Positions 12,954 to 33,149 of a stretch of DNA of 34,766 nucleotides are shown here, one piece after another (positions within the stretch are counted from its first letter, which is position 1; every line of letters begins with the position of its first letter). This DNA is from Campylobacteraceae bacterium. Lineage in GTDB: Bacteria; Campylobacterota; Campylobacteria; Campylobacterales; Sulfurovaceae. Where the stretch lies: NCBI GenBank assembly GCA_027081355.1, contig JALWKP010000152.1:1-34766 (forward strand). Direction: 5' to 3'. The translations under genes were made by a program, and so were the position numbers. The notes beneath the pieces are model-generated. The model was not told the DNA's origin and ran no database searches. It worked only from the letters and a program-made list of their open reading frames with translations.

Positions 12954-13089
12954 TTGGTGATTGGTGATTGGTGATTAGTGATTAGTGATTAGGGATTAGG
13001 GATTAGGGATTAGGGAAATTTGTTTTTAGCTTTGTGCCAATAAATGGCTAACTTGCTCTTAACTTAATAGTAATGCGGGTGTCCTTAAG
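12954..13089 (+). repeat. Heptamer array plus conserved tail, copy 1
   Basis: Nine consecutive 7-base units run from 12954 to 13016, grading from TTGGTGA through TTAGTGA to TTAGGGA. They lead into AATTTGTTTTT and then a tail with GCCAATAAATGG and TTAACTTAATAGTAATG, ending near CCTTAAG at 13089. The same tail recurs at the other copies of this family. It fills most of the divergent gap between the tRNA cluster and the ATPase gene, and ends a few bases before the predicted ATPase promoter. Confidence 0.8.
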
Positions 13090-13094
13090 TTTTG

Positions 13095-13100
13095 TATGAT
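13095..13100 (+). promoter_or_regulatory. -10 box of the ATPase gene
   Basis: TATGAT (13095-13100), preceded by TTTTG, ends only 11 bases before the ATG. A start site at the usual distance would leave a leader of about five bases or none, which agrees with the absence of a ribosome binding site. Confidence 0.45.
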
Positions 13101-13111
13101 ATATTTAAATT

Positions 13112-14170
13112 ATGACTATTTTAGATACTTTTTTTACAAATCCGCCGAAATTAGAGCGTTTTTATCCCCGTAAATTGCAATTGCCTAAAGATGAATCTTT
13201 TTTGCTTTGCGGAGCGCGGGGGTGCGGCAAGAGCGCTTTGGTTATTGATTATATCAACAGTTTGCAAGAGCAGTTTTTATATATCGACTGCGAAGACCCT
13301 GCATTTATTTTAAAAACTCTTGATGAATTTGAATTAGAAGAGTTTATAAAAGAAGAAGGGATTAAAGTTTTAATTTTAGACCACTACTTTGAGGGTTTTT
13401 TAGAATATTTGCCAAAAGCAGAACAGTTAATTGCGGTATCTAGGCTGCCGCTTGATTTGGGTTTAAAGAGACTTCGTTTATATCCGCTTGATTTTGAAGA
13501 GTTTATAAATTTTAAAAACAGGAACGAAGCTATTGATGCATTTAATTTATATGCAAAATTCGGTTCGCTTGCACATATTGCCAAATCTTCAAACACTTTA
13601 TTGGCAAGCCGGGAGCTCTTTTTTGAAAAGTTTGATTCCCAAGAGGGAAAAGTGCTTTTGATACTTTCATTTTTTCAGGGAAAAGTTGCAACTTCCCACC
13701 AAATTTACCAGCGGGCAAAAGAAGATTTTAAAATATCAAAAGATTGGCTTTATAAAACTATTAAAAATTATGAAAAAGAGGGTGTTTTATATAAAATAAA
13801 AACCCTTGAGGGCGGTTTTGGGGAAAAGATTTTTCTTTACGATTTTATTTTTAGCAAATATTTAAATAAAAATCAGCTTTTTATAACAACTTTTGACACG
13901 CTTGTGGCTTTGGCTCTTTTGAAAAAGGGGGTTAAAATTCTAGCTTCAAATTCGCCGCTTGGGTATCTAAACGGCAACAGATTTATACAAGTTGCCCCTT
14001 TTGAAGATGAGGCAAATTTATGGAAAAAGGCGCAAAACAGTTTTGGTTTTTACACGAAACATAAAATTAAAAAAGTAATTGCAGTAACGGTAAACGGGCG
14101 GTATAATTTTAAAATTAAAGATATAAAATTTGAAGCAGTGCCGTTTTACGAGTGGACAATCGGAGAATAA
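13112..14170 (+). CDS. P-loop ATPase of the COG1373-like AAA family
   Basis: A 352-residue ATP-binding protein of unknown job. Walker A is GARGCGKS (residues 34-41) and Walker B is VLILDH (86-91). The sensor-like SRLPLDLGLKRLRLYPLDFEEF segment resembles the archaeal-type AAA ATPases grouped as COG1373. A winged-helix-like middle (about 180-240) is followed by a C-terminal region with KKVIAVTV, which in this group often has a nuclease-like fold. The catalytic residues of such a fold cannot be confirmed by eye. No ribosome binding site precedes the ATG. A small unknown gene follows after nine bases. The ATPase assignment is firm; its substrate is unknown. Confidence 0.8.
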   Translation: MTILDTFFTNPPKLERFYPRKLQLPKDESFLLCGARGCGKSALVIDYINSLQEQFLYIDCEDPAFILKTLDEFELEEFIKEEGIKVLILDHYFEGFLEYLPKAEQLIAVSRLPLDLGLKRLRLYPLDFEEFINFKNRNEAIDAFNLYAKFGSLAHIAKSSNTLLASRELFFEKFDSQEGKVLLILSFFQGKVATSHQIYQRAKEDFKISKDWLYKTIKNYEKEGVLYKIKTLEGGFGEKIFLYDFIFSKYLNKNQLFITTFDTLVALALLKKGVKILASNSPLGYLNGNRFIQVAPFEDEANLWKKAQNSFGFYTKHKIKKVIAVTVNGRYNFKIKDIKFEAVPFYEWTIGE

Positions 14171-14179
14171 GGAGTTTTT

Positions 14180-14518
14180 TTGTTTAAAAAAAAAGAAAAG
14201 TTATATATAAAAGATTTACTGCCTAATCCGGCGCTGGAGTATCCGGGGTATTATATTTTAAGTGCTTACCTGGCAAAAAATGAATTATTGCAAAGCACAT
14301 TAATTGCGCTGCATAGTTTTGAATTTAGCAATTATAAAAATCCAGAAAGTTATGATGAAATTTTTGCAATGGTTAAAAAGGGACAGTTTTCTATATATAA
14401 AGAAAAATATGCAGTAGGTTATTTTGGCGGCAAACTGATGTATTTAGAACCGTATGGATGGAAAGCGATGCCGGTTACAAAAGATTTATTTGATTTAAAT
14501 AATTGGTTAATTTGTTAA
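14180..14518 (+). CDS. Conserved-looking small protein of unknown function
   Basis: I do not recognise this 112-residue protein. It starts at TTG, supported by an AAGGAG site at the right distance; no ATG fits as well. It has a lysine-rich start and an aromatic-rich body (EYPGYYILSAYL, YGWKAMP), with no signal peptide or membrane span. It follows the ATPase by nine bases and ends before a new promoter, so the two form a short operon and may act together. Confidence 0.7.
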   Translation: MFKKKEKLYIKDLLPNPALEYPGYYILSAYLAKNELLQSTLIALHSFEFSNYKNPESYDEIFAMVKKGQFSIYKEKYAVGYFGGKLMYLEPYGWKAMPVTKDLFDLNNWLIC

Positions 14519-14541
14519 ATAGTCTAAGATTTTTTTGATAT

Positions 14542-14547
14542 TATAAT
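14542..14547 (+). promoter_or_regulatory. -10 box of the aldolase-like gene
   Basis: TATAAT in the context GATATTATAATGC lies 25 bases before the chosen start. It overlaps an upstream in-frame ATG at 14546, which therefore cannot be the translation start if this promoter is used. Confidence 0.55.
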
Positions 14548-14572
14548 GCAATTATTGGCAAAAAGGTTTAAT

Positions 14573-15547
14573 ATGCTAAAGAAAAAGGGAACAATGCTTA
14601 GTGTTAGAGAAGATTTAAGAATATTAGATTGCACAATCAGAGATGGGGGATTGGTAAATAAATTCCATTTTACCGATGATTTTGTGCGCGGCGTTTATGA
14701 AACTTGCGTAGCAAGCGGAGTTGATTATTTTGAAATAGGCAAAAATAATTCTCCTACGCTTATGAGCGAAGATGAATTTGGCGCTTGGAACTTTTGTAAA
14801 GAAGAGGATATAAGACGCATAGTCGGCGAGAATAATACCGATATGAAAATTGCTGTTATGTCGGATATTGGACGGACTGTTAAAGACGAACTGCTGCCAA
14901 AAGCGGATTCGGTTGTTGATATGGTCCGCATTGCAGCTTATGCGCACCAGATTCCTGAAGCGATTGAGCTAATAGAAGATGCCCACGCTAAGGGGTATGA
15001 AACAACTATTAACATAATGGCGATTTCAAAGCTTTTTGAAAGCGATTTGGATGAAGTGTTAGAGACTGTCAGCAAAACACCTGTGGATGTTATTTATGTT
15101 GTTGATAGTTTTGGTTCTTTTTATCCTGAGCAGATAAGAAAATTAACTGAAAAATATTTAAAGATTGCAGAAGAAACCGGTAAAAAAGTGGGGATTCATG
15201 CGCATAACAATATGCAGTTAGCTTATGCAAATACAATTGAATCTATGGTTTACGGCACCAGTTTTTTAGATGCGACAATATCCGGCTTGGGGCGCGGTGC
15301 GGGGAATTGTCCGCTTGAGCTGCTTATTGGTTTTTTGAAAAATCCAAAATATAAAATTCAGCCTCTGTTAAAATTTATTCAAGATGAAATTGTGCCGTTA
15401 GAGAAAGAGCTGGATTGGGGTTACAGTATTCCTTATATGATAACCGGTCAATTAAATGAACACCCTCGAAGCGCAATGAAAGCAAGAGCAGAAGGCGATA
15501 CTCAATTTGTTAAATTTTATAATTCGCTGCTTGATGCTCAACAGTAG
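14573..15547 (+). CDS. DRE-TIM metallolyase (aldolase catalytic domain) protein
   Basis: A 324-residue TIM-barrel enzyme of the HMG-CoA lyase / 4-hydroxy-2-oxovalerate aldolase superfamily. The first strand has LDCTIRDGG, matching the metal-binding Asp and catalytic Arg of the DRE motif. GIHAHNN supplies the HxH metal ligands, and VVDSFGSFYP is the expected strand before it. The C-terminal extension is short, so it is unlike isopropylmalate or citramalate synthase. I chose ATG 14573, with AAAAAGG upstream; 14594 is an alternative and 14546 lies in the promoter. The substrate cannot be told from sequence; a lyase or aldol reaction on a 2-oxo acid is the family expectation. Confidence 0.8.
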   Translation: MLKKKGTMLSVREDLRILDCTIRDGGLVNKFHFTDDFVRGVYETCVASGVDYFEIGKNNSPTLMSEDEFGAWNFCKEEDIRRIVGENNTDMKIAVMSDIGRTVKDELLPKADSVVDMVRIAAYAHQIPEAIELIEDAHAKGYETTINIMAISKLFESDLDEVLETVSKTPVDVIYVVDSFGSFYPEQIRKLTEKYLKIAEETGKKVGIHAHNNMQLAYANTIESMVYGTSFLDATISGLGRGAGNCPLELLIGFLKNPKYKIQPLLKFIQDEIVPLEKELDWGYSIPYMITGQLNEHPRSAMKARAEGDTQFVKFYNSLLDAQQ

Positions 15548-15559
15548 CAGTTTTGGCTG

Positions 15560-15574
15560 CTGCTGATATAGCAG
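15560..15574 (+). terminator. Small hairpin after the aldolase-like gene
   Basis: CTGCT and AGCAG at 15560-15574 form a 5-bp stem with a 5-base loop shortly after the stop, followed by TAATTAAAA. Weak, but it is in the right place between convergent genes. Confidence 0.3.
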
Positions 15575-15582
15575 TAATTAAA

Positions 15583-15655
15583 AAGCTAAAAGCTAAAAGC
15601 AGAAAAAATGACGAGGCTTTTGGCTTTAAGCTTTATGCTTTTTATTGAAGGGCGC
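15583..15655 (+). repeat. Partial copy of the modular intergenic repeat (GCTTTTA array)
   Basis: AGCTAAAAGCTAAAAGC is followed by AATGACGAGG and then GCTTTTGGCTTTAAGCTTT. The first part is nearly the reverse complement of the last, so the segment could fold on itself. The AATGACGAG junction followed by the CTTTTGG array matches the copies near 26950 and 27190. It sits between convergent genes. Confidence 0.6.
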
Positions 15656-15692
15656 TTGTATCTTTTTAAAGAACCTAAAATAACTTGCTTTA

Positions 15693-16553
15693 TTAAAGCT
15701 GGCGGTATTTTTTATACTCTTTTGGTATCAGATAATCTTCGGTTTTTATTAAGCAGTCGTATTCTCCGTGCTTGTGCCCTATTTCAAATAGTTTATCAAG
15801 CGCTTCAATTTGCAGCGGGCTTAGGGTTATTGATTCATCCGAGGCATACATATTTAGATACTGCTCCAGCATTTTATCTTCGATTCTTACTAAATTTTTC
15901 TCTACAAGCAAATCGCTAAGCTCTTTTTTACGCTCTACGGCTGCGCGCACGCCCTCTATTAAAATATCTTCCAGTTCAATTGCCCTATTAAGCGGCAAAG
16001 AGCGGCGAAGAGCCATTCCGCCAAGGGGCAGCGGAAGTTCTTTGCCAGCAAGTTCCAGCCACCACTCCCAAAGTTCAAGCTCAACTTCTAAGCTTTTGTC
16101 AAAATCCAAAATAGATTCGTGAATTAAAACCCCCGCATCGACTTCGCCTCTTACAACTGCCTGCTCGATTTCTAAAAAGTTCATATATTTTATGCGGGCA
16201 TTCGGATAGCGCAGGCGGATAAGCATTGCATTTGTTGTATTTTCGCCAGAGAGCGCCAATTTTAAATTATCGCGCAGCCTTTTGCCCTTTTTCTTAATAA
16301 GTTTTGGTCCATACCCCTGCCCAAAACTCACAGCCGTTCTAAGAAGTGCGTATTCATCCCGAATTTTCGGATATAAAGCAAAGCTGATTGCCGTTACGGG
16401 AAACTCGTTTTCTAGCGCTTTTACATTTAGTGTTTCTATATCAAGCGCATAATTTTCAAAATTGTAATCTTTTGTATCCACCCAGCCGAATTTTATTGCA
16501 TAATACATAAAAATATCATCTGCATCGGGAGAGTGTGCGATTTTAATATCCAT
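15693..16553 (-). CDS. mqnD: 1,4-dihydroxy-6-naphthoate synthase-like protein (futalosine menaquinone pathway)
   Basis: A 286-residue periplasmic-binding-protein fold enzyme. The N-terminus IAHSPDADDIFMYYA matches the HSPD-type ligand loop of Campylobacterota MqnD, and LPLPLGGMAL (about residues 176-185) is the second family signature. MqnD converts cyclic dehypoxanthinyl futalosine into 1,4-dihydroxy-6-naphthoate on the route to menaquinone, which suits an anaerobic or microaerobic respirer. An AAGGATAAC site supports the ATG. The related MqnA is the main alternative, but the HSPD start favours MqnD. No other pathway gene is in the window. Confidence 0.8.
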   Translation of the reverse strand: MDIKIAHSPDADDIFMYYAIKFGWVDTKDYNFENYALDIETLNVKALENEFPVTAISFALYPKIRDEYALLRTAVSFGQGYGPKLIKKKGKRLRDNLKLALSGENTTNAMLIRLRYPNARIKYMNFLEIEQAVVRGEVDAGVLIHESILDFDKSLEVELELWEWWLELAGKELPLPLGGMALRRSLPLNRAIELEDILIEGVRAAVERKKELSDLLVEKNLVRIEDKMLEQYLNMYASDESITLSPLQIEALDKLFEIGHKHGEYDCLIKTEDYLIPKEYKKYRQL

Positions 16554-16567
16554 TGTTATCCTTGGTT

Positions 16568-16660
16568 CTAGTTTACTAGGTGCTAGAGACTAGATTGCTA
16601 GATTGCGGCGAAGCCGCCCGATTTGCTCTTTGCTCTTAGCTCTAGGCTCTAAGCTTTTTT
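16568..16660. repeat. CTAG array and GCTCTWR heptamer array
   Basis: CTAG recurs every 7 or 8 bases from 16568 to 16604, related to the array at 10771. A GCGGC-GAA-GCCGC stem follows at 16605-16617. Four 7-base units (GCTCTTT, GCTCTTA, GCTCTAG, GCTCTAA) run from 16625 to 16652 and continue into GCTTTTTT. The tract occupies the divergent spacer between mqnD and recA. Confidence 0.7.
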
Positions 16661-16687
16661 ATTTGAAGCAAAAGCTTCAAATAAAAA
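16656..16687. terminator. Perfect 14-bp hairpin upstream of recA
   Basis: Bases 16656-16669 are exactly complementary to 16674-16687, with an AAAA loop. T-runs on one arm and A-runs on the other make it look like a bidirectional intrinsic terminator. It lies between divergent genes, where a terminator is not needed, so it may instead belong to the repeat tract next to it. Confidence 0.55.
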
Positions 16688-16757
16688 TTTGCCAATTGTA
16701 GCCTAATTTTGATGAAAATTAGATACAATTAAAGAAAAATTTGCAAAGGTTATTTTT

Positions 16758-17798
16758 ATGGATCCTAATAAGAAAAAAGCTTTAGATTTAGCGATAAAAC
16801 AGATAGACAAAGCCTTTGGCAAGGGCACTTTGATGCGCCTTGGCGATAAAGAGATAGAGCCTATTGAAGCAATCAGCACCGGTTCTTTGGGGCTTGATAT
16901 GGCGCTTGGAATCGGCGGTATTCCAAAGGGGAGAATTATCGAAATTTACGGACCGGAGAGTTCGGGTAAAACCACTTTGGCGCTTCAGTGTATCGCTTCG
17001 GCTCAAAAAGAGGGGGCGATTTGCGCATTTATCGATGCAGAGCACGCCTTAGATGTTTACTATGCCAAAAACTTGGGCGTAGATATTGACAATTTACTTG
17101 TTTCTCAGCCAGATTTCGGCGAACAGGCGCTAGAGGTTTTAGAAACATTAACAAGAAGCGGCGCGGTTGATTTAATCGTTATCGACTCTGTTGCGGCGCT
17201 TACGCCAAAAACTGAAATAGAAGGCGATATGGGCGATACCCATGTGGGGCTTCAGGCGCGTTTAATGAGCCAGGCGCTAAGAAAAATTACTGCAATTTTG
17301 CATAAAATGAATACAACTGTAATTTTTATTAACCAAATCCGTATGAAAATCGGAACTATGGGGTATGGCAACCCCGAAACCACCACAGGCGGAAATGCGC
17401 TTAAATTTTACGCTTCTGTGCGCATAGATGTTAGAAAAATCGCAACGCTAAAACAGGCAGATAGCCAAATAGGCAACCGTGTTAAGGCAAAAGTGGTTAA
17501 AAACAAAGTCGCGCCGCCGTTTAGACAGGCAGAGTTTGACATAATGTTTGGCGAGGGTATCAGCTTTGAGGGCGAATTGTTAGATTACGGCGTTAAGCTT
17601 GATATTATCGATAAAAGCGGAGCATGGTATAGTTACGGCGCTACAAAACTTGGGCAGGGCAAAGAGAATTCTAAAAATACTTTAAAAGAGAATCCGGAAT
17701 TAAAAGATGAGATAGAGCACAAAATTAAAGAGGCGCTCGGATTTGGAGAAAAGCTTCAAATAGAAGAAGATGAGATGTCAAAAAGCAAAAAGAAATAA
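16758..17798 (+). CDS. recA: Recombinase RecA
   Basis: The 346-residue RecA forms the DNA strand-exchange filament and triggers SOS-type cleavage where such regulators exist. Walker A is GPESSGKT (residues 65-72). The L2 loop region with [21 protein letters not shown] is intact, as are [10 protein letters not shown] and [12 protein letters not shown]. The C-terminus is acidic then lysine-rich. A -10-like GATACAAT lies about 30 bases upstream. No LexA-type box is evident in the short leader, in line with Campylobacterota lacking LexA. It is followed by eno, the usual neighbour in this phylum. Confidence 0.98.
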
Positions 17799-17855
17799 AC
17801 TTTTTTAAAAAATTTTGATACAATTGCGTATTTTAAAGAGGGAGATAGAGTCAAT

Positions 17856-19130
17856 ATGGTTTTTATAGAAGATATTTATGCAGACGAGGTTTTAGACAGC
17901 CGCGGGAATCCGACTGTTAGGGCAACTGTTGTTTTAAGCGACGGGACAAAAGAGAGTGCGATTGTTCCAAGCGGGGCGAGCACCGGTTCTAAAGAGGCGC
18001 TGGAGCTTCGTGACGGCGGAGAGAGATTCGGCGGCAAAGGAGTGCTTAAGGCTGTTGAGAATGTAAACGAAGCGATTGCCGAAGCTTTAATTGGAATGAG
18101 TCCGTTTAATCAAGCTGAAGTTGATTTGGCTATGAAAGAGTTAGACGGCACAAGCAATTACTCTAACCTTGGGGCAAATGCGGTTTTGGGCGTTTCTATG
18201 GCGGTTGCAAGAGCGGCTGCAAGCAGCCTTAAAATGCCTCTATACCGCTACCTTGGCGGTGCAAACGGGGTTGTAATGCCGGTTCCTATGTTAAATATTA
18301 TTAACGGCGGAGAGCATGCAAACAATTCTGTGGATTTTCAAGAGTATATGATTATGCCGATTGGTTTTAATGCTTTTAGCGACGGTTTAAGAGCATCTGC
18401 AGAGGTTTATCATAAATTGAAAAAAATTATCGACGGTATGGGGCAAAGCACTGCTGTGGGCGACGAGGGCGGATTTGCACCGAATTTAAAAAGCAATGAA
18501 GAGCCGATAGAGGTTATTATGCAGGCAATTAAAGAGGCAGGTTACGAGCCGGGCAGAGATATTGTGCTGGCTCTTGATGTTGCTTCCAGCGAACTGTTAA
18601 ATGATGAGGGCAAATATGTGCTAAAATCTGAAGGCAAAGAGCTTACAAGCAGTGAACTTATAGATTATTACGAAAATTTAATTAATAAATATCCGATTGT
18701 TTCTATTGAAGACGGTCTTGGCGAAGACGACTGGGAGGGGTGGAAAGAAATTACAGACAGACTCGGCAGCAAAATTCAGCTTGTCGGAGATGATTTATTT
18801 GTTACAAATGTGGAGATATTAAGCGAAGGTATTAAAAAAGGCACTGCTAATGCTATATTAATTAAGCCTAACCAAATCGGAACCATCAGCGAAACTATGA
18901 TGACAGTGCGTATGGCGCAAAGAAACGGATACAGATGCGTAATGAGCCACAGAAGCGGCGAGAGCGAAGATGCATTTATTGCAGATTTTGCCGTGGCGTT
19001 AAATACCGGACAGATTAAAACCGGCTCAACAGCAAGAAGTGACAGAATTGCAAAATACAACAGGCTGCTTGAAATCCAAAGAGAGCTTGGGCAGTTTGAA
19101 TATTTAGGAAAAGAGCTGTTTGGTGAGTGA
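17856..19130 (+). CDS. eno: Enolase
   Basis: The 424-residue enolase interconverts 2-phosphoglycerate and phosphoenolpyruvate. The N-terminal part has DSRGNPTV and the mobile loop [25 protein letters not shown] carries the catalytic Glu. Metal ligands are in [15 protein letters not shown] and [10 protein letters not shown], and LIKPNQIGT and SHRSGESED form the phosphate and catalytic Lys/His region. A TACAAT -10 lies in the 57-base recA-eno gap, so it probably has its own promoter. The end overlaps the next gene. Confidence 0.98.
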
Positions 19131-19389
19131 TATAGTCGAAGAGTTAAGCGATAAAGAAGAAAAAGAGAGCAAAAGCTTCTCTTTTCTCCCTTTGATTGTG
19201 TTTATTTTCTTAATTACATACCTCTATTCTATACTTTTTGGCGAATACTCCATAAATACTTTCTTAACAGTTAAAAAAGAGAAAGCAAAAATCCAAAAAG
19301 AGTATGACGATTTACAAAAAGAGAATCAAAAACTGCAAAAAGAGCATTTTAATTATATAAATTCTACATCTATGCAAGATTTGCAATAG
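19123..19389 (+). CDS. FtsB/DivIC-like septum protein
   Basis: An 88-residue bitopic protein. A short acidic cytoplasmic start ([17 protein letters not shown]) is followed by one membrane helix (about residues 20-40). A lysine/glutamate-rich coiled coil follows outside ([20 protein letters not shown]). This is the architecture of FtsB/DivIC, which joins FtsL and FtsQ at the division site. eno-ftsB adjacency is well known in other proteobacteria and supports the call. I chose GTG 19123, giving an 8-base overlap with eno; TTG 19120 is equally possible. The gene is too short and variable for certainty. Confidence 0.65.
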
Positions 19390-19451
19390 TTAATCAATAT
19401 TAGCATTTTTACTAAGCTTAATAGATATTATAACAGCTTTATTAAAGTAAA

Positions 19452-19483
19452 GAGACTGCTGCACAATATTGTGCAGCGGTCTC
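19452..19483. terminator. 32-bp near-perfect palindrome after the eno operon
   Basis: GAGACTGCTGCACAAT pairs with ATTGTGCAGCGGTCTC, 15 of 16 positions matching with one T/G. It lies 62 bases past the last stop codon and could act as a terminator, although only a mixed A/T tract follows. Each half is almost the same as the ends of the inverted-repeat element at 34526-34688, so it may be two transposon ends fused head to head. Confidence 0.65.
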
Positions 19484-19584
19484 ATAATAATTTTATAAAT
19501 GCAAAAATTGCGATAAATGTAATAAAAATGTCAATTAAATATGTTATTTTGTCTATATTAATCTTTTTTAAGAGAAATATATCG

Positions 19585-23310: not shown

Positions 23311-24891
23311 ATGATAGAATATAAATTTAATACATTTTACCAGGCACTTAAGCATTATGCTTATTTACAACCTAATGTTACAGCAATAGTTATAAAAGAT
23401 AAAAAAATATCTTTTTCTAAATTGCACGATTTTACAAACAGGGTTGCTTCGTTTTTGCAAAGCAGAAATGTTAAACCGGGCGACAGAGTGGGGATATTTT
23501 TAAACAATTGCTGGGAGTATATACCTATTGTTTATGCTATTTCTAAAGTCGGAGCGGTTGCTGTTCCTATAAATACTCACTTTAAATCGCAAGAGTTAAG
23601 CAGTATAATAGAAGATGCCAATATAGATGTATTTTTTGCTAATGACAGTCTGCGTGATATTGTAGTAAAATCTATCGCTATTCATAAGTGCCCAAATGTC
23701 GCATGGATTGGAAATGATGTAGTAGGCACAAGATTCAAAAATATTTTAAAAGCAAAAGATACCTCGATAGAGATAGAGAGAAGTTTAGATGATGTTGCTT
23801 CTATTTTTTATACTTCTGGAACCACCGGCGACCCAAAAGGCGCAATTTTGACCAATAGAAATATGCTTTTTAATGCGATTTCTGCAAATAAGCTTTTTAA
23901 AACGACAAAAAAAGACAGAAGCGTGGTATTCTTACCGCTTTTCCACATATACAGTTATAATGTGGCGGCGTTTTTGCCTTTAAATTTAGGGGCATCGATA
24001 GTTATGATACCCCCAAATACACCTTTTAGCGAAATTTTAAAAAGCGTATATAAAAATAAGGTTACACTGTTTTTTGGAATTCCTAATGTTTATGATGCGA
24101 TGGCAAAGAGCAAATTGTCTTGGCGTTTTATGAAATTTAATAAAATACGGCTTTTTGTTTCTGGAGCTGTGGCAATGCCGCTAAGTGTGCATGTTGCTAT
24201 GCAAGAGAAGTTTAAAAAGATACAATTAGTAGAAGGCTATGGTTTGACCGAAGCGTCTCCGATAGTGACTATAAACCCGCCAAATGGCTCTAAAATATCT
24301 TCGGTAGGCAAACCGATACCAGGATGCGAGGTTAAAATTGTTAATGAGCGCTGTTTAGATTTAAGCAATAAAACAATTGGAGAAGTTATCGTTAAAGGCG
24401 ATAATGTTATGAAAGGTTACTTAAACAGAGAAGAAGAGACTAAAGAGGCTATTGTTAAAGGGTGGCTTTACACCGGAGATTTGGGCTATATTGATGAAGA
24501 CGGCTACTTATATATTGTAGATAGAAAAAAAGATGTAATTATTGTTAATGGTTTAAATATTTATCCAACAGAGATAGAACAGATAGTAAATCAATTCGAC
24601 GGTGTAAAAAGGTCTGCTGTTATAGCTAAAAAGGATGAATTAAGGAATGATATTCCTATCTGCTATATTGAGCTTGAAGATTCTGATAAAGAGTTAAATA
24701 TAGAAAAATTGGTTAAATATTTAAAAGGATTTTTAGCAGATTATAAAATTCCATCAGATTTTGTATATATCGAAAAAATTCCGGTAGGTCCCAGCGGAAA
24801 AATTTTAAAAGAGAAGTTAAAACAGATAATTATAGAAAAAGAGCATAAAGAAATTATTGATGAAAGCAAATATTTAAACAGTTATTATTAG
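23311..24891 (+). CDS. Acyl-CoA ligase / AMP-binding enzyme
   Basis: A 526-residue member of the ANL superfamily, which activates a carboxylic acid with ATP and transfers it to CoA. The phosphate loop is YTSGTTGDPKG (167-177). The A5 motif is EGYGLTEASP (308-317), the ribose-binding Asp is in YTGDLG (387-392), and the hinge follows DRKKDVIIVNGLNIYP. The catalytic Lys is in GPSGKILK (Lys497). Length and order match long-chain fatty acyl-CoA synthetases (FadD-like); the exact acid is unknown. It stands alone between spacers. Its TAG stop is the first TAG of a heptamer repeat that follows. Confidence 0.88.
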   Translation: MIEYKFNTFYQALKHYAYLQPNVTAIVIKDKKISFSKLHDFTNRVASFLQSRNVKPGDRVGIFLNNCWEYIPIVYAISKVGAVAVPINTHFKSQELSSIIEDANIDVFFANDSLRDIVVKSIAIHKCPNVAWIGNDVVGTRFKNILKAKDTSIEIERSLDDVASIFYTSGTTGDPKGAILTNRNMLFNAISANKLFKTTKKDRSVVFLPLFHIYSYNVAAFLPLNLGASIVMIPPNTPFSEILKSVYKNKVTLFFGIPNVYDAMAKSKLSWRFMKFNKIRLFVSGAVAMPLSVHVAMQEKFKKIQLVEGYGLTEASPIVTINPPNGSKISSVGKPIPGCEVKIVNERCLDLSNKTIGEVIVKGDNVMKGYLNREEETKEAIVKGWLYTGDLGYIDEDGYLYIVDRKKDVIIVNGLNIYPTEIEQIVNQFDGVKRSAVIAKKDELRNDIPICYIELEDSDKELNIEKLVKYLKGFLADYKIPSDFVYIEKIPVGPSGKILKEKLKQIIIEKEHKEIIDESKYLNSYY

Positions 24892-25066
24892 AAATTAGAG
24901 ATTAGAGATTAGAAATTAGAGATTAGAGAAATTTGTTTTTTGTAGTCTATATTCTGTAATACGAATGTCAAGATGGTTTTTTCTGTCGGCTTTTAGCTTT
25001 TAGCTTTTTGCCAATAAATAGAAACTTTCGTGTTTAACTTACGATGGTAATGGAGGTCTCCTTAAA
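24888..25066 (+). repeat. Heptamer array plus conserved tail, copy 2
   Basis: Six 7-base units (TTAGAAA or TTAGAGA) run from 24888 to 24929. They begin inside the last two codons of the acyl-CoA ligase, so the stop codon is part of the first unit. The following tail (24930-25066) is nearly identical for about 85 bases to the inverted copy at 29214-29325, and its last part matches the tails at 13030-13089 and 27000-27044. It fills the gap to the convergent DUF2059 gene. Confidence 0.85.
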
Positions 25067-26629: not shown

Positions 26630-26752
26630 TTTTATCCTTTTGAATTATTTGCGGCACACTCTTATACGCATCAACTTAAAAATTTCATTCATATAAAAAA
26701 TATAGTATTGCGTCATTCCCGCAAAAGAGAAATGACTGGATTCCTCAAGCTT

Positions 26753-26832
26753 TAGGGCACCTCCATTGCCATTAAGTTAAGAGTAAAATATCCATTTATT
26801 GGCATAAAGCTTAAAGCCAAAAGCAGAAAGCT
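26753..26832 (-). repeat. Modular repeat tail, inverted copy
   Basis: This is the reverse complement of the conserved tail: GGCACCTCCATTGCCATTAAG, then CCATTTATTGGC, then the AAGC array and AAAGCAGAAAGC. It lies immediately next to the dRS3-like element at 26840 and points opposite to the copies at 26951 and 27191. Confidence 0.8.
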
Positions 26833-26839
26833 GTCACTG

Positions 26840-26949
26840 CGTCATTCCCGCGAAAGCGGGAATCCACAGACTTTGTAACCAAAAAATTTGGATTCCTTAC
26901 TTTTTTGGTTATTTAAACTGTGGATTCCTGGTCAAGCCAGGAATGACGA
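26840..26949. mobile_element. MITE-like element with dRS3-like hairpin ends, copy 1
   Basis: The ends are CGTCATTCC and GGAATGACG. The left end contains the 20-bp palindrome ATTCCC-N8-GGGAAT (26844-26863) and the right end a similar hairpin near 26923-26943. CCACAG and CTGTGG add further inverted bases. The length is about 110 bp with no reading frame of its own. ATTCCC-N8-GGGAAT is the consensus I recall for the neisserial dRS3 repeat. A degraded half copy lies at 26710-26742. Confidence 0.7.
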
Positions 26950-26950
26950 G

Positions 26951-27044
26951 ATGCTTTTCTCTATCGGCTTTTGGCTTTGAGCTTTAAGCTTTGTGCATTT
27001 TATGGACATAAAAACCTTAACTTAATGGCATTGGAGGTGCCCTT
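26951..27044 (+). repeat. Modular repeat tail, direct copy A
   Basis: This starts directly at the end of the MITE-like element with ATGCTTTTCTCTATCGGC, continues through the CTTTTGGCTTTGAGC array, GTGCATTTTATGGACATAAA and CCTTAACTTAATGGCATTGG, and ends in AGGTGCCCTT. The last 77 bases (26968-27044) are identical to 27201-27277. Confidence 0.85.
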
Positions 27045-27084
27045 CAATGCCAAAAGCAGAAAGCAAAAAAATTATCTGCCTCCT

Positions 27085-27190
27085 GTCATTCCCAACTTGA
27101 TTGGGAATCCACGATTTAAATTGCTTAAAAGTAAAAATAGGACTTTTGTAGCAGTTCAAACTGTGGATTCCCGCTTTCGCGGGAATGACG
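27085..27190. mobile_element. MITE-like element with dRS3-like hairpin ends, copy 2
   Basis: About 106 bp. The left hairpin is ATTCCC-N9-GGGAAT (27088-27108) and the right is ATTCCC-N8-GGGAAT (27167-27186). The outer ends are TGTCATTCC and GGAATGACG. It has the same plan as the copy at 26840 but a different interior, and is again followed directly by the modular tail. No coding capacity. Confidence 0.7.
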
Positions 27191-27278
27191 AGGTGGTTAG
27201 CTTTTGGCTTTGAGCTTTAAGCTTTGTGCATTTTATGGACATAAAAACCTTAACTTAATGGCATTGGAGGTGCCCTTT
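27191..27278 (+). repeat. Modular repeat tail, direct copy B
   Basis: The second copy of the tail begins just after the MITE-like element. From 27201 to 27277 it is identical to 26968-27044. Together with 26630-26830 this means the whole 672-bp gap between the genes at 25706 and 27302 is repeat DNA; I see no gene in it. Confidence 0.85.
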
Positions 27279-27301
27279 AGCCCTTAATCCTAACCAAATT
27301 A

Positions 27302-29176
27302 TCAATTATGAATTAAAACAAATTTCGGTCCCACAACGCAAGGCCATACTTTAGCAACCGGGTTGCCGTATTTGTCAATTGCGCTGTCTGCCCAGCAGTA
27401 TTGGTGCCCTTCTCTGTCGTCGTTGTGGATTGTAGGCACATACCAAAGCACTATATCACTGTTTTCAATCAACTCTTTATCGGCTATAAATCTCTCGGGA
27501 CCGTCTTCGTCCAGTTTGCAGCAGCTGCCAAGAGTCAGCAAATCTTCATCGCCCTCATCTTTTTTAAATTTGCTTATAAAAATATGCTCGTGGTCTCCGC
27601 GGCTTCCGTCTTTAAACTGTCCGCGGTTTGGCTCTACATAATATCCGCTGTCTGGATTTTCGATTTCGGTAAATTTATAAAGATATTTACCCTTATACAT
27701 CGGTTCTTTGGAACTAGCTTTATACTCGCCCTCTAAATCAAATTTCTGCCAAGCTCCGTTTTTATACAAAGAGAACTCTTCATGGCTGTCTAAATCTATA
27801 TCTAGGCGCATTACAGGGCGGTAAATTGCTTTATTTGAACATCCGCGCCCCATACTTACAGCTGCTGTTCTAAATGAGCCGTCTTTGTAAAAGAAAAAGC
27901 GGTTTTGATAGCGGTAATTGCAAGCCATCGGCCATTTTGGGTTTCTAAAGTCTTGAATAATACTAAAGCCCACGGTTTTATTGTTTTCTACAATATCTTT
28001 AACCTGCGGTCCGTTAAATGCCAGCACAACCGAAGTAGAAAACATAGGACACCCCATAGCATCGTTATATCCAAAGGTATATTCATTATTTTCGCCTTTA
28101 ACAAACTCAACCCGGCGCCCTTCGATGATTGTCGGCGTAGATGTATCGAGCTTATCGGCGCCGTAACCTTTGTAAGCTACGTGCCAATCGACCACTTTAA
28201 GCGATTTTGCAACTTTGTGCCCCTTAAATTTAACATCGCGAAGCTCCAGCCCGTCGGAGCCTGTTAAGTGGTAAACCATACTCCAGCCGTCTTTTTGCAG
28301 TTTTGTATCTTTTTGGCAGAAATTTTTAACAATATAGCGGTTTTCAAGCTCTCGCTCATCAATGCAGGCAGGTGTATAGGTTTTGCCAAGCCCTGCCCAT
28401 TTTGCCGCAGCAAGTTTAAGCTTTGTTAAATCTACAATTGCCCAAAGCGCCCTTTGCTTTTCGCGCTGCGGGAAGGTTGGCGCAACGCAGAGGTGGTTTT
28501 TGTTCTCGCACGGTGAATTTTCCAAATTAGTGCGCACATTGGGCATAGAAATTTCATTTGGTGTCGGTTCGTGCCCCAAATCTGCTATAATTTTCGGATT
28601 TTTCAAAGCAATAGCTTTAGCAATATTTGTTAATCTTACGCTAATATCGGGCTGCATATTCGGATAATTGTGAATTGCTATAATTTTTCTTGCATTAACA
28701 TCCACAATAGCCCTTTTAGTGCTGTTTAGCGCAAAATTGTATTTCTCTACAACATAACATACGCTCTCTTTGCACTCCTGCTTTGCTTTGCTATCTAGCA
28801 TAGAAACGGGCGCAGGCACTACACGCATAATGTCATTGTGCAAAATTTTGCCGTCTATTTTTGTATCGCTTAAAAATTTTTTGCTTTTTAACGCGACATC
28901 CTGAGCGATTTTGCCGTTGCTGTCTAATTCGCTATTATCTAAAGGCAACACGGTTTTTCCGCTTGCATAAGCCTCTTTTATATCATTTAAATATGCTTGA
29001 ACCTCTTCGATTTTTTCGTAATCGTTTCCTACATCGGGGATAATTATTTTTTTATCAGCTTTGCTGTAATGCTCGCTTTTTACCATAATTTTAGAGTGCT
29101 TTTTAAGATACAGCCCTCCAATAACCCCAAGCCCGGCAACAAATACAGCTGCCGCTATTTTATACTCTGATTTCAA
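27302..29176 (-). CDS. Anchored copper amine oxidase-like protein (diverged)
   Basis: A 624-residue protein starting at TTG with a strong AAAGGAG site. Residues 7-25 are a membrane anchor. Residues 300-335 (YHLTGSDGLELRDVKFKGHKV), 419-435 (CNYRYQNRFFFYKDGS), 457-461 (RLDID) and 574-584 (DIVLWYVPTIH) follow, in order, the catalytic domain of copper amine oxidases. Tyr421 falls where the cofactor-forming Tyr of the N-Y-D/E motif would be, but the next residue is Arg. The HxH copper ligands expected just before RLD are absent; another HxH (His529, His531) lies later. Many cysteines suggest an exported, disulfide-rich protein. A diverged oxidase or a non-catalytic relative is my best guess; the similarity is by eye. 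Confidence 0.5.
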   Translation of the reverse strand: MKSEYKIAAAVFVAGLGVIGGLYLKKHSKIMVKSEHYSKADKKIIIPDVGNDYEKIEEVQAYLNDIKEAYASGKTVLPLDNSELDSNGKIAQDVALKSKKFLSDTKIDGKILHNDIMRVVPAPVSMLDSKAKQECKESVCYVVEKYNFALNSTKRAIVDVNARKIIAIHNYPNMQPDISVRLTNIAKAIALKNPKIIADLGHEPTPNEISMPNVRTNLENSPCENKNHLCVAPTFPQREKQRALWAIVDLTKLKLAAAKWAGLGKTYTPACIDERELENRYIVKNFCQKDTKLQKDGWSMVYHLTGSDGLELRDVKFKGHKVAKSLKVVDWHVAYKGYGADKLDTSTPTIIEGRRVEFVKGENNEYTFGYNDAMGCPMFSTSVVLAFNGPQVKDIVENNKTVGFSIIQDFRNPKWPMACNYRYQNRFFFYKDGSFRTAAVSMGRGCSNKAIYRPVMRLDIDLDSHEEFSLYKNGAWQKFDLEGEYKASSKEPMYKGKYLYKFTEIENPDSGYYVEPNRGQFKDGSRGDHEHIFISKFKKDEGDEDLLTLGSCCKLDEDGPERFIADKELIENSDIVLWYVPTIHNDDREGHQYCWADSAIDKYGNPVAKVWPCVVGPKFVLIHN

Positions 29177-29213
29177 TGCAACTCCTTTACAAAATTGACA
29201 ACTCTATTGGGTG

Positions 29214-29325
29214 AAAAGCTTAAAGCTAAAAGCCAACAGAGAAAAGCATCTTGACATTCGTATTACAGAATATAGATTACAAAAAACAAATTTCTCTAAT
29301 CTCTAATCTCTCTTCTCTAAAATAG
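29214..29325 (-). repeat. Heptamer array plus conserved tail, copy 3 (inverted)
   Basis: On the minus strand it starts with TTTTAGAGAAGAGAGATTAG, whose first TAG is the stop codon of the TraB-family gene. It then matches the tail of the copy at 24888 for about 85 bases with only a handful of differences. It fills most of the gap before the 624-residue gene. Confidence 0.85.
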
Positions 29326-30216
29326 CAGCTTCTTAACTTTAAACCCCTCTTTTTTTAAATAATCCAAAACATTCCTTTTGCTTAAAAAGTGCATCGCTCC
29401 AAATGCGAAAAGATACTTTTTATTCGGATTTTTGCTTACAATTTCTGCAATTCTTTTTGCCATACGGATATTTCTTTTATATAAAATTGTATCTAAATAG
29501 CGCTTTTTTAAATCTTGACTTACCGTAGAATTTTGCATAGAATTCACAAAGTGCTCTATTACACACTTGCCGTCGCCTTTTGCATAGCAGTTTAAAAACT
29601 TTTCTATCATTTTAGGATTTTTTTCGTATTGAATTAAACCATCGCGCAGTATTTCGATGCTCTCTTTGCGGCTAAAGCTGTCGAAAATTGCGATTTGCTC
29701 TTCTACCTTTTCTACCCCTCCAACCTTTTTGCCCCGAGCTTTTGCGTATTCGTAAATTTGCTTATCCAAAGGCTTTATATAGCGGTATTTTAATTGATAT
29801 TTAAGCAATCCGACATTTAATGCAACTGCCCATATCTTAAATTTGTCAAAAGCCTTGAGGTTTAAATACGGCGCTTCTTTCTTTAGCTGCATTTGCAATT
29901 TATCGTAAACATCTTTTGGCAAAATCTCTTGTAAAGTTTTATTGTCATCGCGCAAGGAAGCTTGCATTATAGCCATTGTTGCAAACATATTTAGAGGAAT
30001 TTCGGTATAAACCTCATCTACGCTGTCTATTATCTTTTTTACCCTTTGAAATTCCGCATTTGCAACAGGGTGCGGCAGGTGCATTGTGCCAAAAAGATAA
30101 ATTGTGCTTTTGTTTTTTACTGCTTTCCACAAAAAGGGCTTAACATTAACTGCCGTGTAAGCATTTCTGCCAAAAGCAAGCCCAAAAAAGAGAATTAAAA
30201 CGGTTAAAATTCTCAT
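29317..30216 (-). CDS. TraB/GumN family protein
   Basis: A 299-residue exported protein. The first 16 residues are a signal peptide. The two family motifs are both present: GTMHLPH (residues 43-49) and GAMHFLS near residue 273. These Gly-x-x-His motifs define the TraB/PrgY/GumN fold, related to metal-dependent hydrolases. The biological substrate is unknown. The ATG overlaps the stop of the M15 peptidase gene by four bases, so they form an operon. The TAG stop lies in the first unit of a repeat array. Confidence 0.8.
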   Translation of the reverse strand: MRILTVLILFFGLAFGRNAYTAVNVKPFLWKAVKNKSTIYLFGTMHLPHPVANAEFQRVKKIIDSVDEVYTEIPLNMFATMAIMQASLRDDNKTLQEILPKDVYDKLQMQLKKEAPYLNLKAFDKFKIWAVALNVGLLKYQLKYRYIKPLDKQIYEYAKARGKKVGGVEKVEEQIAIFDSFSRKESIEILRDGLIQYEKNPKMIEKFLNCYAKGDGKCVIEHFVNSMQNSTVSQDLKKRYLDTILYKRNIRMAKRIAEIVSKNPNKKYLFAFGAMHFLSKRNVLDYLKKEGFKVKKLLF

Positions 30217-30929
30217 TTAAGCAGTTCCGGTCTGTATTCAAAATGCATTGTGTCGTAGTGATACCATTTTCCGCCCCAAATAAAGCCGTGGCGCTCGAAA
30301 ATTTGCACAATCTTTTGGGGAATTTGGTTGCGGTATCTGTAAGCCCCTTTGCTCCAGCGCCAGTATGCCGAATATTTCACATTTATATCTATTGCCGCGC
30401 CAAAAGAGTGCACGCTTAGCCGCTTTGTGCCCGCAATACGGCGCCATTTAAATGTTCCGCCAATAGGATGCAGATATTTTTGAAACTGCGGCGGCAAAGT
30501 TTTTAAATCGCGGTAAACCGCTTTAAGCGCATTTGCCACCCCCTCTTTTTTTGTAACCTTAACAGCCCCGCCAAACCAAGGTATTGTAACTAAATTTGCC
30601 CTTACTTCGCTTTCGTTATGCCCGTAAATCTCTTTAAAAAGCGGCTCAAAACGAATCCTTCCGGGGTCGAAATTTTTAGGCAGAGCCTTAATTGGGTGTT
30701 TAGGGTATTTAAATTTAAACATATCCTCAATATCCGGGCTGTTTAAAAGCTGAGTAAAACTTTTTTTCTTCCCGTCATCATATATAAAACTCTTTCCGTT
30801 GCTTAAATAAATTCGGTTATTTTCACATTTAACAATAGATTTGTAAGAAGCAATAAGTTTTAAAGCATTGTAGTCGCAATTTGCAAATAAGTAAGCTGTT
30901 GTTATTAGCAGGTATGAGAACAACTTCAT
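30213..30929 (-). CDS. M15-family peptidase (VanY / D-Ala-D-Ala carboxypeptidase-like)
   Basis: A 238-residue periplasmic enzyme with a signal peptide (cut near residue 17). The zinc site is complete: SVHSFGAAIDIN gives His174 and Asp181, and DTMHFEYRPE gives His229. Such enzymes cut D-Ala-D-Ala or cross-links in peptidoglycan. It is upstream of the TraB-family gene and overlaps it. Its ribosome binding site (AAAAAGG, ideally spaced) lies inside the stem of a hairpin four bases before the start, so translation may be limited unless the hairpin opens. Confidence 0.85.
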   Translation of the reverse strand: MKLFSYLLITTAYLFANCDYNALKLIASYKSIVKCENNRIYLSNGKSFIYDDGKKKSFTQLLNSPDIEDMFKFKYPKHPIKALPKNFDPGRIRFEPLFKEIYGHNESEVRANLVTIPWFGGAVKVTKKEGVANALKAVYRDLKTLPPQFQKYLHPIGGTFKWRRIAGTKRLSVHSFGAAIDINVKYSAYWRWSKGAYRYRNQIPQKIVQIFERHGFIWGGKWYHYDTMHFEYRPELLK

Positions 30930-30932
30930 AAA

Positions 30933-30967
30933 AAGCCTTTTTATTGCATTTTAGCAATAAAAGGCTT
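30933..30967 (-). terminator. Terminator hairpin that also holds the M15 ribosome binding site
   Basis: Bases 30933-30947 pair with 30954-30967, a 14-bp stem with one bulged T and a short loop. It follows the lipoprotein gene by 27 bases and, on the transcribed strand, ends in a T-run. The 3' arm contains AAAAAGG, six bases before the ATG of the M15 gene, so the same stem can stop transcription and mask translation. Confidence 0.65.
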
Positions 30968-30994
30968 AAAGATTTAATTAAGAAAATATTAAAA

Positions 30995-31909
30995 TTATTT
31001 ATCTTCGCATTTCTCTTTCATTTTATTGTCAAACTCTTCTAAGCTCATAGTTTCACTTTCGCCGCTAGGCTTTGTAATCTTTACCGTTTTATCATCAAAC
31101 TCAACGGTAACCGATTTTGAGTTAGATTCAACTTTAATTTTGCCGTACATACTATCATCATCACTTTCGTTATCGTATATATCTTTTACTTGAGGCTGCG
31201 TTTCTACATAAACATAACTGCTTAAGCAGTAAGGTTTTACATACCCTTTTGCTTTAACAATAGTTGTTTCTTTATTATTTTCTTCTTTATTCTGTAAAGA
31301 AATATTGTAATTTAAATATTTTTGAATCTTTTTATCCACATTAAATGTGGCATAAAGTTTTGAAATAGATTCAGAGTGAGAATTTCTATTCATATATATT
31401 TTGGCATGTTTTATTTCAATATATGCATTTAATGATTCATTTTTTGTGGTAAAATTATCGTATTCGGCCGTAACCTCTTGAATTTCTTCTCCATCTAGAG
31501 TAATATCAACTTTAATTTTTCCGTTATATACACCATCTCCAATTTGGCAATTGTTATATATAACAGTTCCGGAAGTATCATTTTTTTTATCAAATTTTGC
31601 AGTGCCGCTGTCGCATATATCCATATTTTCAGTTTTATATGCTTTTTCGGCACTCAATTTTGCCATTTTGCTTAATTTACTATGAATTTTTAAGTCGGCT
31701 CCCGGAATGGAATTGTCACTAAGCTTAGAACTTGATATAATGCTTCCAACAGAACCCTCTGCTGCATTTTCTGAATTGCTATCATTTAATTTTTGAATTT
31801 CCGAAGCAGACGGTTTACTAGGCAATGAACTGCCGCCACCGCCTCCACATCCGTTAACTACAAATAGTCCGCCAACTAATAAACTTGTTGCAAATTTTTT
31901 AAGACCCAT
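30995..31909 (-). CDS. Lipoprotein of unknown function
   Basis: A 304-residue protein with a classical lipoprotein signal: MGLKKFATSLLVGGLFVVNG then Cys21 and a Gly/Ser run. I chose ATG 31909 because AAAGGAAA lies at the right distance and the signal peptide starts there; the frame opens 12 codons earlier. The mature part is Ser/Asn/Lys-rich and beta-strand-like (GKIKVDITLDGEEIQEVTAEYD), with two or three cysteines. No family recognised. It sits in its own transcription unit between two terminator hairpins. Confidence 0.72.
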   Translation of the reverse strand: MGLKKFATSLLVGGLFVVNGCGGGGGSSLPSKPSASEIQKLNDSNSENAAEGSVGSIISSSKLSDNSIPGADLKIHSKLSKMAKLSAEKAYKTENMDICDSGTAKFDKKNDTSGTVIYNNCQIGDGVYNGKIKVDITLDGEEIQEVTAEYDNFTTKNESLNAYIEIKHAKIYMNRNSHSESISKLYATFNVDKKIQKYLNYNISLQNKEENNKETTIVKAKGYVKPYCLSSYVYVETQPQVKDIYDNESDDDSMYGKIKVESNSKSVTVEFDDKTVKITKPSGESETMSLEEFDNKMKEKCEDK

Positions 31910-32029
31910 GTTTTTTCCTTTATCAAAGATTTTAATTGACATCAATACTAATTAAGGCAAAATCAATAAGGATATCTTATAAAATTATACTTAAAAAAAA
32001 TTATATTTTCTTTTTATTTACACAGTTAT

Positions 32030-32057
32030 AATGGTTCTAAAATATTTTAGAATCATT
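32030..32057. terminator. 28-bp palindrome after the LOG-family gene
   Basis: The two 14-base halves (32030-32043 and 32044-32057) match as inverted repeats at 13 positions. It lies 14 bases past the LOG stop. The stem is A/T-rich and no long T-run follows on the minus strand, so strength is uncertain. Confidence 0.5.
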
Positions 32058-32070
32058 ATTTTAGTAGCAT

Positions 32071-32919
32071 TCAATTACCCAAAAGCCCCCTGCCCTTATC
32101 TTTGTGCCATTGTAAGATATAATCCCAAGCTTCCTGGGCGCAGTTTACTACTTTGAAAATATTTAAATCATCTGCTGAAATCATCCCCTCTTCGATTAAA
32201 AATTCAATATTTAGGAGGTTGCTCCACCACTGTTTTCCGACAATTGCCACGGGAATTTGTTTCATAGATTTTGTCTGTGTCAGCGTTAGCAGTTCAAATA
32301 GCTCATCCATAGTTCCAAAACCGCCTGGGTAAACAACCATAGCTTTTGCGCGCTGGAAAAAGTGGAATTTTCTTATTGCAAAATAGTGAAACTGCAGGCA
32401 AAGTTCGGGGGTAATGTATGGGTTTGGGTGCTGTTCGTGCGGAAGCTGGATATTTAAGCCGATAGAGTTTGCCCCAACCTCAAAAGCGCCTCGGTTAGCC
32501 GCTTCCATAATTCCCGGACCTCCGCCTGTCATTACCATTACGCGGTTATCATCAACCCCTTTGCCGCTTTTGCCTATAATTCTGCCAAGCTCTCTTGCAT
32601 CTTCGTAAAAAAAGCTGTTATCAAGCGCTTTTGTGGCTTTTTTAAGCTCTTGACCGTTTACCCCTTTTTTAATAAGTTCATCGACTCTGGCTTTTGCCAC
32701 ATCTTGCGGCAGGGTTCTAGCGCTTCCAAAAATTGCAATGGTGGACTCTATGCCAAACTTTTTCATAGCAAGCTCGGCTTTTAAATAATCAAGCTCTAAG
32801 CGCACACCTCGGGTTTCATACTCTTTTAAAAACTCTTTGTCATCTTCTGCCAGCTTATATGTAGGCGAATTTTCGATTTTTTTTAACAGTTCTAACTCTT
32901 CTTTTGTATAATAAAACAT
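32071..32919 (-). CDS. LOG-family Rossmann protein (nucleotide phosphoribohydrolase-like)
   Basis: A 282-residue protein with both hallmark motifs of the LOG family: GGGPGIMEAANRGA (132-145) and PGGFGTMDE (198-206). LOG proteins cleave nucleoside 5'-monophosphates to base and ribose 5-phosphate; in bacteria PpnN is the best-known relative. An N-terminal helical extension of about 55 residues precedes the Rossmann core. A GGAG site supports the ATG. The exact substrate cannot be read from sequence. Confidence 0.85.
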   Translation of the reverse strand: MFYYTKEELELLKKIENSPTYKLAEDDKEFLKEYETRGVRLELDYLKAELAMKKFGIESTIAIFGSARTLPQDVAKARVDELIKKGVNGQELKKATKALDNSFFYEDARELGRIIGKSGKGVDDNRVMVMTGGGPGIMEAANRGAFEVGANSIGLNIQLPHEQHPNPYITPELCLQFHYFAIRKFHFFQRAKAMVVYPGGFGTMDELFELLTLTQTKSMKQIPVAIVGKQWWSNLLNIEFLIEEGMISADDLNIFKVVNCAQEAWDYILQWHKDKGRGLLGN

Positions 32920-33002
32920 ATCCGTTTCTCCAAATAAATTTTATAATTATAGCGATTTATGTTTAGGATTTGGAAGCAAAAAGCGGATATATTTTGAAGA
33001 GA

Positions 33003-33149
33003 TGGCACTCATTTCCATTGTTAAGTTAAAGATTTTATATCCATAAAATGTATAAAGCTCAAAGCAAAAAAGTTGTTTGCCTCCCCTCACCCATCCGGAA
33101 TACGAAATGCGGATTACAAATATTCTAATCTCTAATCTCTCTTCTCTAA
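33003..33149 (-). repeat. Heptamer array plus conserved tail, copy 4 (inverted)
   Basis: Read on the minus strand it starts with TTAGAGAAGAGAGATTAG, identical over 28 bases to the start of the copy at 29320. It continues with a different middle (33075-33120) and ends in the shared tail (GCTTTGAGCTTTATACATTTTATGG, then CTTTAACTTAAC). It fills most of the gap between the LOG gene and the Hsp20 operon. Confidence 0.75.

Follow-up and report, generated by a model that had tools for sequence, protein, structure and literature searches.

Repeats in the intergenic spacers of a 34,766-nt stretch of DNA from a Campylobacteraceae bacterium (contig JALWKP010000152.1, assembly GCA_027081355.1; this whole stretch is called the window) are, in our opinion, non-autonomous miniature inverted-repeat transposable elements (MITEs) of the IS4 family, whose ends stay while their centres differ. 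The probability of this reading is put at roughly 0.87. The window belongs to a metagenome-assembled genome (MAG) of 1.86 Mb in 181 contigs, 95.6% complete and designated G000 below. Seven copies were recognised in the window, two of them near complete (26764-27033 and 27045-27266) and five truncated or decayed (12954, 15583, 24888, 29214 and 33003). A first-pass annotation had counted eight spacers sharing parts; the parts are real and lie where it had placed them, but 26753 and 26951 are halves of one palindromic element.

Transposon ends and a candidate IS4 parent

A BLAST comparison of two window copies with their own genome gave 64 and 133 matching pieces, and the common ends CAATGCCATTAAGTTAAG / CTTAACTTAATGGCATTG were obtained by side-by-side reading of copies. 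As terminal inverted repeats (TIRs), ends of the CAATGCCATTAAGTTAAG type were found 72 times in the genome (39+33) at ≤3 mismatches, versus 0+0 for the reversed pattern; the census of copies is partial, since ends were counted only within this limit. The distance between paired ends is mostly 195-290 bp, direct repeats stand outside them, and complete elements are non-coding and about 200-290 bp long. Perfect 11-bp target duplications surround eight copies of the genome found by automatic search (AAGGGCACCTC, TAGGGCACCTC, GAGGTGCCCAT, TAGGGCTCCTC, AGCCAGCCCCA and GAGGTGCCCTA once each, AGGGGCAGACC twice), and also the window copy 27045-27266. Targets closely resembling the duplication of the latter are GAGGTGCCCAT at contig C109 and GAGGTGCCCTA at contig C142 of G000. 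As these direct repeats flank the second MITE, most of the GGAGGTG/GAGGTG tail earlier assigned to the element is target duplication. The first MITE, 26764-27033, is without a direct target duplication because its left flank is inverted relative to the right one; it may have arisen by fusion of two insertions, one at each end of another MITE (element 2).

The genes flanking 26764-27266 are 672 bp apart here versus about 12-69 bp in six congeners without the element, all of them other species of the genus (G001, G004, G005, G006, G009 and G010). Copy 29214 is likewise absent from the relative G008, where the gap is about 145 bp shorter. The first-pass annotation considered such shuffling untypical of simple REP or MITE families; however, TIRs bounding a short non-coding element, target duplication, size, intergenic position and presence or absence at orthologous sites identify the element as a MITE. 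At the gene pair of the window MITEs, G005 (L357) and G004 (L358) carry a short heptamer-like array, of the CTAACCA/CTAACCC type in G005, so that arrays can arise there independently. Two copies in other species, L367:944-1090 (G009:C45) and L171 (G005:C2), are 97% and 91% identical to those of the window's genome, whereas the genes of these species are only about 68-71% identical to its genes at this place. This difference in identity makes transfer between species or recent spread probable.

A candidate parent, which has these ends and encodes a transposase, was found outside the window's genome, on a Helicobacteraceae MAG contig (L343, 275-1861). It is a 1587-bp insertion sequence (IS) with exact CAATGCCATTAAGTTAAG at both ends, encoding a 456-aa IS4 transposase with the YREK motif YSLRWGIETYYDLIK. 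Another IS, of 1568 bp, lies in a relative (L167, 1047-2614; G098:C3) and has the ends CAATGCCATTAAGCTAAG, one mismatch in the TIR and the left target GAGGTGCCCAT, which a MITE in the window's genome uses too. Its 409-aa transposase, 58% identical to that of L343, scores above the IS4 family cut-off and contains D104, D193, E302 and the YREK motif YARRWGIETYYDVLK, of the form Y(2)R(3)E(6)K. Among 399 genomes of the order, 10 contain homologues or fragments; one of these, L206, lies in a one-contig genome and has an exact 11-bp duplication, ACCCCAACTTG. Subgroup IS4 is characterised by ends of the pattern -AATR--------WTW, a duplication of 10-13 bp, a size of 1400-1650 bp and the YREK motif (PMC2266710). 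The parents fit this subgroup in size (1587 bp in L343), in motif and in the pattern of their ends, with a deviation in L167, which has C at the first W; the duplications fit it in length (11 bp in the MITEs and L206). These sequence features place the ends in subgroup IS4 of the IS4 family. Unlike members of this subgroup, the window elements are non-autonomous, have unrelated interiors and, being non-coding, encode no transposase. A search of plasmids gave distant IS4 relatives alone (the best, 50%, in Sulfurospirillum), and a sequence search found no solved structure related to the transposase. One candidate for a MITE adjoining its own transposase, G005:C66, was rejected, the transposase being outside the ends.

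The agents proposed earlier were a REP-associated tyrosine transposase (RAYT) or a reverse transcriptase, where REP stands for repetitive extragenic palindrome. According to this explanation, the modules are palindromes of the type of REPs or bacterial interspersed mosaic elements (BIMEs), which a RAYT (Y1 HUH) transposase moved or a reverse transcriptase copied, and such machinery accounts for the order of parts; we consider it very improbable, despite four Y1_Tnp matches in the genome and CGTC-REP dimers in the centres of two element classes described below. Two of the four matches run into contig ends, and the two readable genes (L214, G000:C79; L217, G000:C92) adjoin REPs of their own (GGTCGGTAAACCGACC; TCCCAAAGCTCCAGCTTTGGGA), not window elements; neither is flanked by copies of the whole element. 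A search of the genome with RVT_1 found no reverse transcriptase. Moreover, 11-bp target duplications together with CAATG..CATTG ends are a signature of DDE and not of Y1 enzymes. The relevant enzyme family is that of DDE (IS4) transposases, and for the chassis of the elements the target duplications and the IS4 parent largely refute movement by RAYT or reverse transcriptase, which could still have taken part in the first movement of the centre REP dimers.

Modular build of the elements

One fixed order of parts, as claimed at first pass, is kept genome-wide in about 50 copies, whole or partial. A TIR and arm X are followed by a GCTTTAA array, an inner left part (a1, a2 or heptamer) and the centre; then come an inner right part (b1, b2 or heptamer), the GCTTTTGG array, arm Y and the second TIR. 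The main parts are far above chance in the window: TTAACTTAATGGCATTGGAGGTG has 3 matches at ≤3 mismatches (0 in 100 shuffles) and GCCAATAAATGG 3 matches at ≤1 mismatch (0.45 expected), while GATGCTTTTCTCT, with 5 matches against 1.75 expected, is weakly above chance and has two exact matches in context. Parts scattered at random distances and in no order, the outcome that would have spoken against a modular family, were not seen inside elements. The order holds within the element, whereas REP dimers and TTAGAGA heptamer arrays also stand alone elsewhere in the genome, outside the chassis. GCCAATAAATGG and GCATTTTATGGA, formerly treated as one part, are actually the alternative arms X and Y, usually found at opposite ends.

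The front was said to be exchanged and the back kept, and indeed four of the possible combinations of left and right inner parts cover most copies. Class 1 consists of a1, a CGTC-REP dimer and b1; class 2 of a2, a different CGTC-REP dimer and b2; class 3 of a heptamer segment, a GAATGTC junction and b1; and class 4 of a2, a GTCATCCATTC junction and a reversed heptamer segment. Thus, b1 is common to classes 1 and 3 and a2 to classes 2 and 4. Comparison of arms X and Y between classes 1 and 2 gives a similarity (0.93/0.95) as high as that within each class, and therefore one chassis received different centres; the front looks swapped because this chassis bears either CGTC-REP dimers or heptamer-array segments. 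Arms are exchangeable too, since copy 24888 has arm X in the place of the arm Y usual for class 3. The likeness among copies is highest in classes 1 and 2 (0.93-0.98), classes 3 and 4 being more decayed (0.81-0.90), and this divergence suggests successive waves.

In the class 1 centre, at 26840-26867 and 26920-26948, the features of CGTC-REPs (PMC3733652) were recognised, namely a CGTC/TGTC tag, a stem of 8-9 bp, a loop of 4-5 bases, a CCA tail and the head-head dimer arrangement. The class 1 and 2 centres resemble the head-head dimers described in that work (dRS3 in Neisseria) in tag, 8-bp stem, loop and CCA tail. Such dimers inside unexplained palindromes were reported from Halothiobacillus neapolitanus and Anabaena variabilis (PMC3733652), whereas the palindrome around them in the present case could be recognised as an IS4 MITE, complete with target duplications.

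The main alternative for the origin of the centres accepts the IS4 MITE chassis and supposes that REP dimers or heptamer elements were inserted into the MITE middle, with no recombination between copies. This nested insertion is a real possibility, to which we attach clearly less than even chances: REP dimers and heptamer arrays exist alone, relatives have nested stacks (L111, L139), and REP dimers lie inside palindromes in other bacteria (PMC3733652), but the junctions of REP dimers showed no recognisable target duplication. In the heptamer class, one REP arm and its flank are not interrupted but substituted (b1 is common to classes 1 and 3, a2 to classes 2 and 4), and arm X at the Y position in copy 24888 is left unexplained. 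As for slippage alone, by which modular-looking heptamer arrays would have been made and their order would be a coincidence, we give it almost no credence. Long arrays of pure TTAGAGA, with about 20 units or more, do exist (L104, G000:C100; L105, G000:C139; L107, G000:C118), one of them leading straight into a class 4 centre; however, the non-heptameric parts (TIR, arms, a1/a2 and b1/b2) hold their order in the copies counted above, which refutes slippage as a full explanation.

Several repeat families are stacked and nested within one IS4-type end pair at L111:992-1518 and L166:2537-3063. A heptamer-like array at L019 houses another element, 123 bp long (2132-2254), whose inverted end is different (CAATGCCAATGAATTAA) and whose duplication is of 10 bp (ACTTCCAACT).

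Table 1. Positions of the repeat copies, their parts and flanking targets in the window
Feature	Coordinates	Strand	Parts and remarks
Left flank AGGGCACCTC of first MITE	26754..26763	+	inverted relative to right flank GAGGTGCCCT
First MITE: complete, IS4-type, class 1	26764..27033	.	TIR 26764-26781, arm X 26791-26804, inner part a1 26830-26843, CGTC-REP dimer 26840-26948, inner part b1 26950-26968, GCTTTTGG array 26967-26989, arm Y 26995-27012, TIR 27016-27033
Target duplication GAGGTGCCCTT, left copy of second MITE	27034..27044	+	read directly; same as right flank of first MITE
Second MITE, class 2	27045..27266	.	left arm mostly deleted, CAATGCC remains; a2 27072-27089, then CGTC-REP dimer, b2 27187-27201, arm Y 27228-27245, TIR 27249-27266
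Target duplication GAGGTGCCCTT, right copy of second MITE	27267..27277	+	read directly
Truncated class 3 copy (24888)	24887..25052	+	left TIR and arm gone; TTAGAGA heptamer array 24887-24929, GAATGTC seam 24957-24975, decayed b1 24972-24990, GCTTTTA array 24989-25008, arm X (inverted) 25009-25022, decayed TIR 25034-25052
Truncated class 3 copy (29214)	29214..29322	-	heptamer segment, GAATGTC seam, b1, GCTTTTA array; both TIRs gone; 93% identical to copy 24888
Truncated class 4 copy (33003)	33010..33151	-	decayed TIR about 33010-33030, arm Y 33034-33051, GTCATCCATTCGG-type seam 33086-33104, heptamer segment 33125-33151
Truncated copy (12954)	12954..13075	+	GTGATTA/TTAGGGA heptamer array 12957-13013 replaces left end, then AAATTTGTTTTT; arm X (inverted) 13035-13048, TIR 13058-13075 (3 mismatches)
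Remnant without TIR (15583)	15581..15641	.	retains just GCTTTTA-type inverted arrays (AAAAGCT / GCTTTTGGCTTTAAGC pair) around a AATGACGAGG remnant

Landing sites, folding and spread

A scan of a public genome collection for the ends gave at least 120 stretches from many genera, among which Thiomargarita, Parabeggiatoa, Thioploca and other sulfur bacteria contributed many; as regards carriage by phages, a single viral contig was found. Over all fetched loci, 115 distinct elements were delimited, 73 of them with a target duplication (51 exact). Their interiors of up to 700 bp form 37 clusters, mostly hairpins, and 94 of the 107 interiors tested fold with z < -3. Stems of at least 8 pairs were found in 15 of the 73 joined target sites versus 17 of 327 control stretches (p = 9e-5). 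Frequent targets in the window's genome are the GTAG-REP-like AGGGGCAGACC and the end of another MITE, unrelated to the first (AGGGCACCTC/GAGGTGCCCT). This second family, of about 266 bp and with the ends GGGCACCTCTAATAAT, was located at G000:C61:3-268, C24:14191-14456 and C142:1088-1352 (L186, L189 and L193), and the IS4-type MITE inserts preferentially at its ends.

All 22 copies checked are intergenic, 11 of them between convergent, 10 between codirectional and one between divergent genes. The RNA fold of the intact element (26754-27043) has an energy of -148.5 kcal/mol and z of -15.7. So stable a hairpin, together with the position of 21 of the 22 copies away from divergent gene pairs, could point to a family of functional RNAs or bidirectional terminators selected at 3′ ends and not to a transposon. 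It is, in our view, hardly probable: a pattern scan found terminator-like sites at chance level (8 versus 8.3 in shuffles), a truncated copy folds no better than shuffles (z -0.47), the Rfam search matched tRNAs alone and not the element, and congeners have no copies at the same gene pair.

A MITE named after hupL, known from the giant bacterium Ca. Thiomargarita nelsonii, has a 10-bp direct repeat and a 19-bp inverted repeat and is present on 260 of 439 contigs; no parent was found for it in ISfinder, and a PD-(D/E)XK origin was suggested (PMC4853749). At its published coordinates we found exactly CAATGCCATTAAGTTAAG ends and an 11-bp duplication, ACTGTTTGGAT. Because these ends are shared, an IS4 parent is proposed for the hupL MITE as well. 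It resembles the window MITEs also in its very many copies and hairpin-rich GTAG-tagged centre, but differs in the kind of centre and in the phylum of the host. In Methylomonas lenta, a 1492-bp end pair around a GNAT gene was considered as a cargo transposon and rejected; these are two separate MITEs in CCCACGC..GCGT-type REPs (L287:2562-2715 and 3900-4053), which flank the GNAT-domain gene.

Some other systems are comparable. ISRm22 of Sinorhizobium meliloti, from subgroup IS4Sa of the IS4 family, is likewise inserted in REP palindromes (PMC1525189, PMC2266710), but it is autonomous and has 10 of 10 insertions in REPs, compared with the partial hairpin preference found here. QMITE2 of Coxiella burnetii (PMC5896051) has duplications of 7-11 bp, contains a GTAG-REP and is mostly situated 3′ of genes, although an exchangeable centre was not reported for it; this likeness is by description. 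Conserved ends and differing cores are also typical of Tn3-derived inverted-repeat miniature elements (TIMEs), which are mosaic (PMC4133298); unlike the window MITEs, they belong to the Tn3 family, have 5-6 bp duplications and in some cases contain genes in their cores. In the open-access papers searched, neither an IS4 link for this end sequence nor an exchange of centres on one IS4 chassis was found.

Proposed mechanism and significance

Several observations weigh against the view of the window repeats as IS4 MITEs with exchangeable centres. No PF01609 transposase match was found in the window's own genome, although a MAG of this completeness and fragmentation may miss one, and the L343 IS has no recognisable target duplication. 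Outside strong hairpins lie 58 of the 73 target duplications, the preference for such sites being partial and not a rule. Many copies are decayed, so that current mobility is only presumed, and no event of centre exchange was caught in the act.

On the preferred reading of IS4-family MITEs, an IS4-type transposase, now absent from this genome or unassembled, would have moved them in trans, reading the ends alone, and this would leave the interior free to change. Insertion may have favoured G/C-rich palindromic repeats, such as GTAG-REP-like hairpins and the ends of the second MITE, which would explain why GAGGTG recurs beside the end. Centres could have been exchanged through recombination or replication slippage at seams, for which there are two candidates, the heptamer arrays (GCTTTTA) between arm and centre and the microhomology GAATG at REP ends. 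Each new chimera would then have been amplified by transposition, giving four main subfamilies. The element, if transcribed, should fold as a long hairpin, and its simplest interpretation seems to be that of selfish DNA which is tolerated at gene 3′ ends.

A broader idea, tentative and at present less probable than its opposite, is that IS4-type ends serve REP palindromes as a general vehicle: MITEs of this family would insert into REP-like hairpins, carry hairpins as exchangeable cargo, spread between species and phyla (Campylobacterota, Beggiatoaceae, Methylomonas) and use heptamer arrays as recombination seams.

Summarizing the significance of these data, a Thiomargarita MITE family published as parentless now has a concrete candidate for its parent (subgroup IS4 of the IS4 family), and the palindrome around CGTC-REP dimers in this genus is identified as a transposon. 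Puzzling mosaic intergenic DNA is explained as stacked mobile elements. If the exchange of centres is true, REPs can ride inside MITEs, and they would be able to spread without RAYTs.

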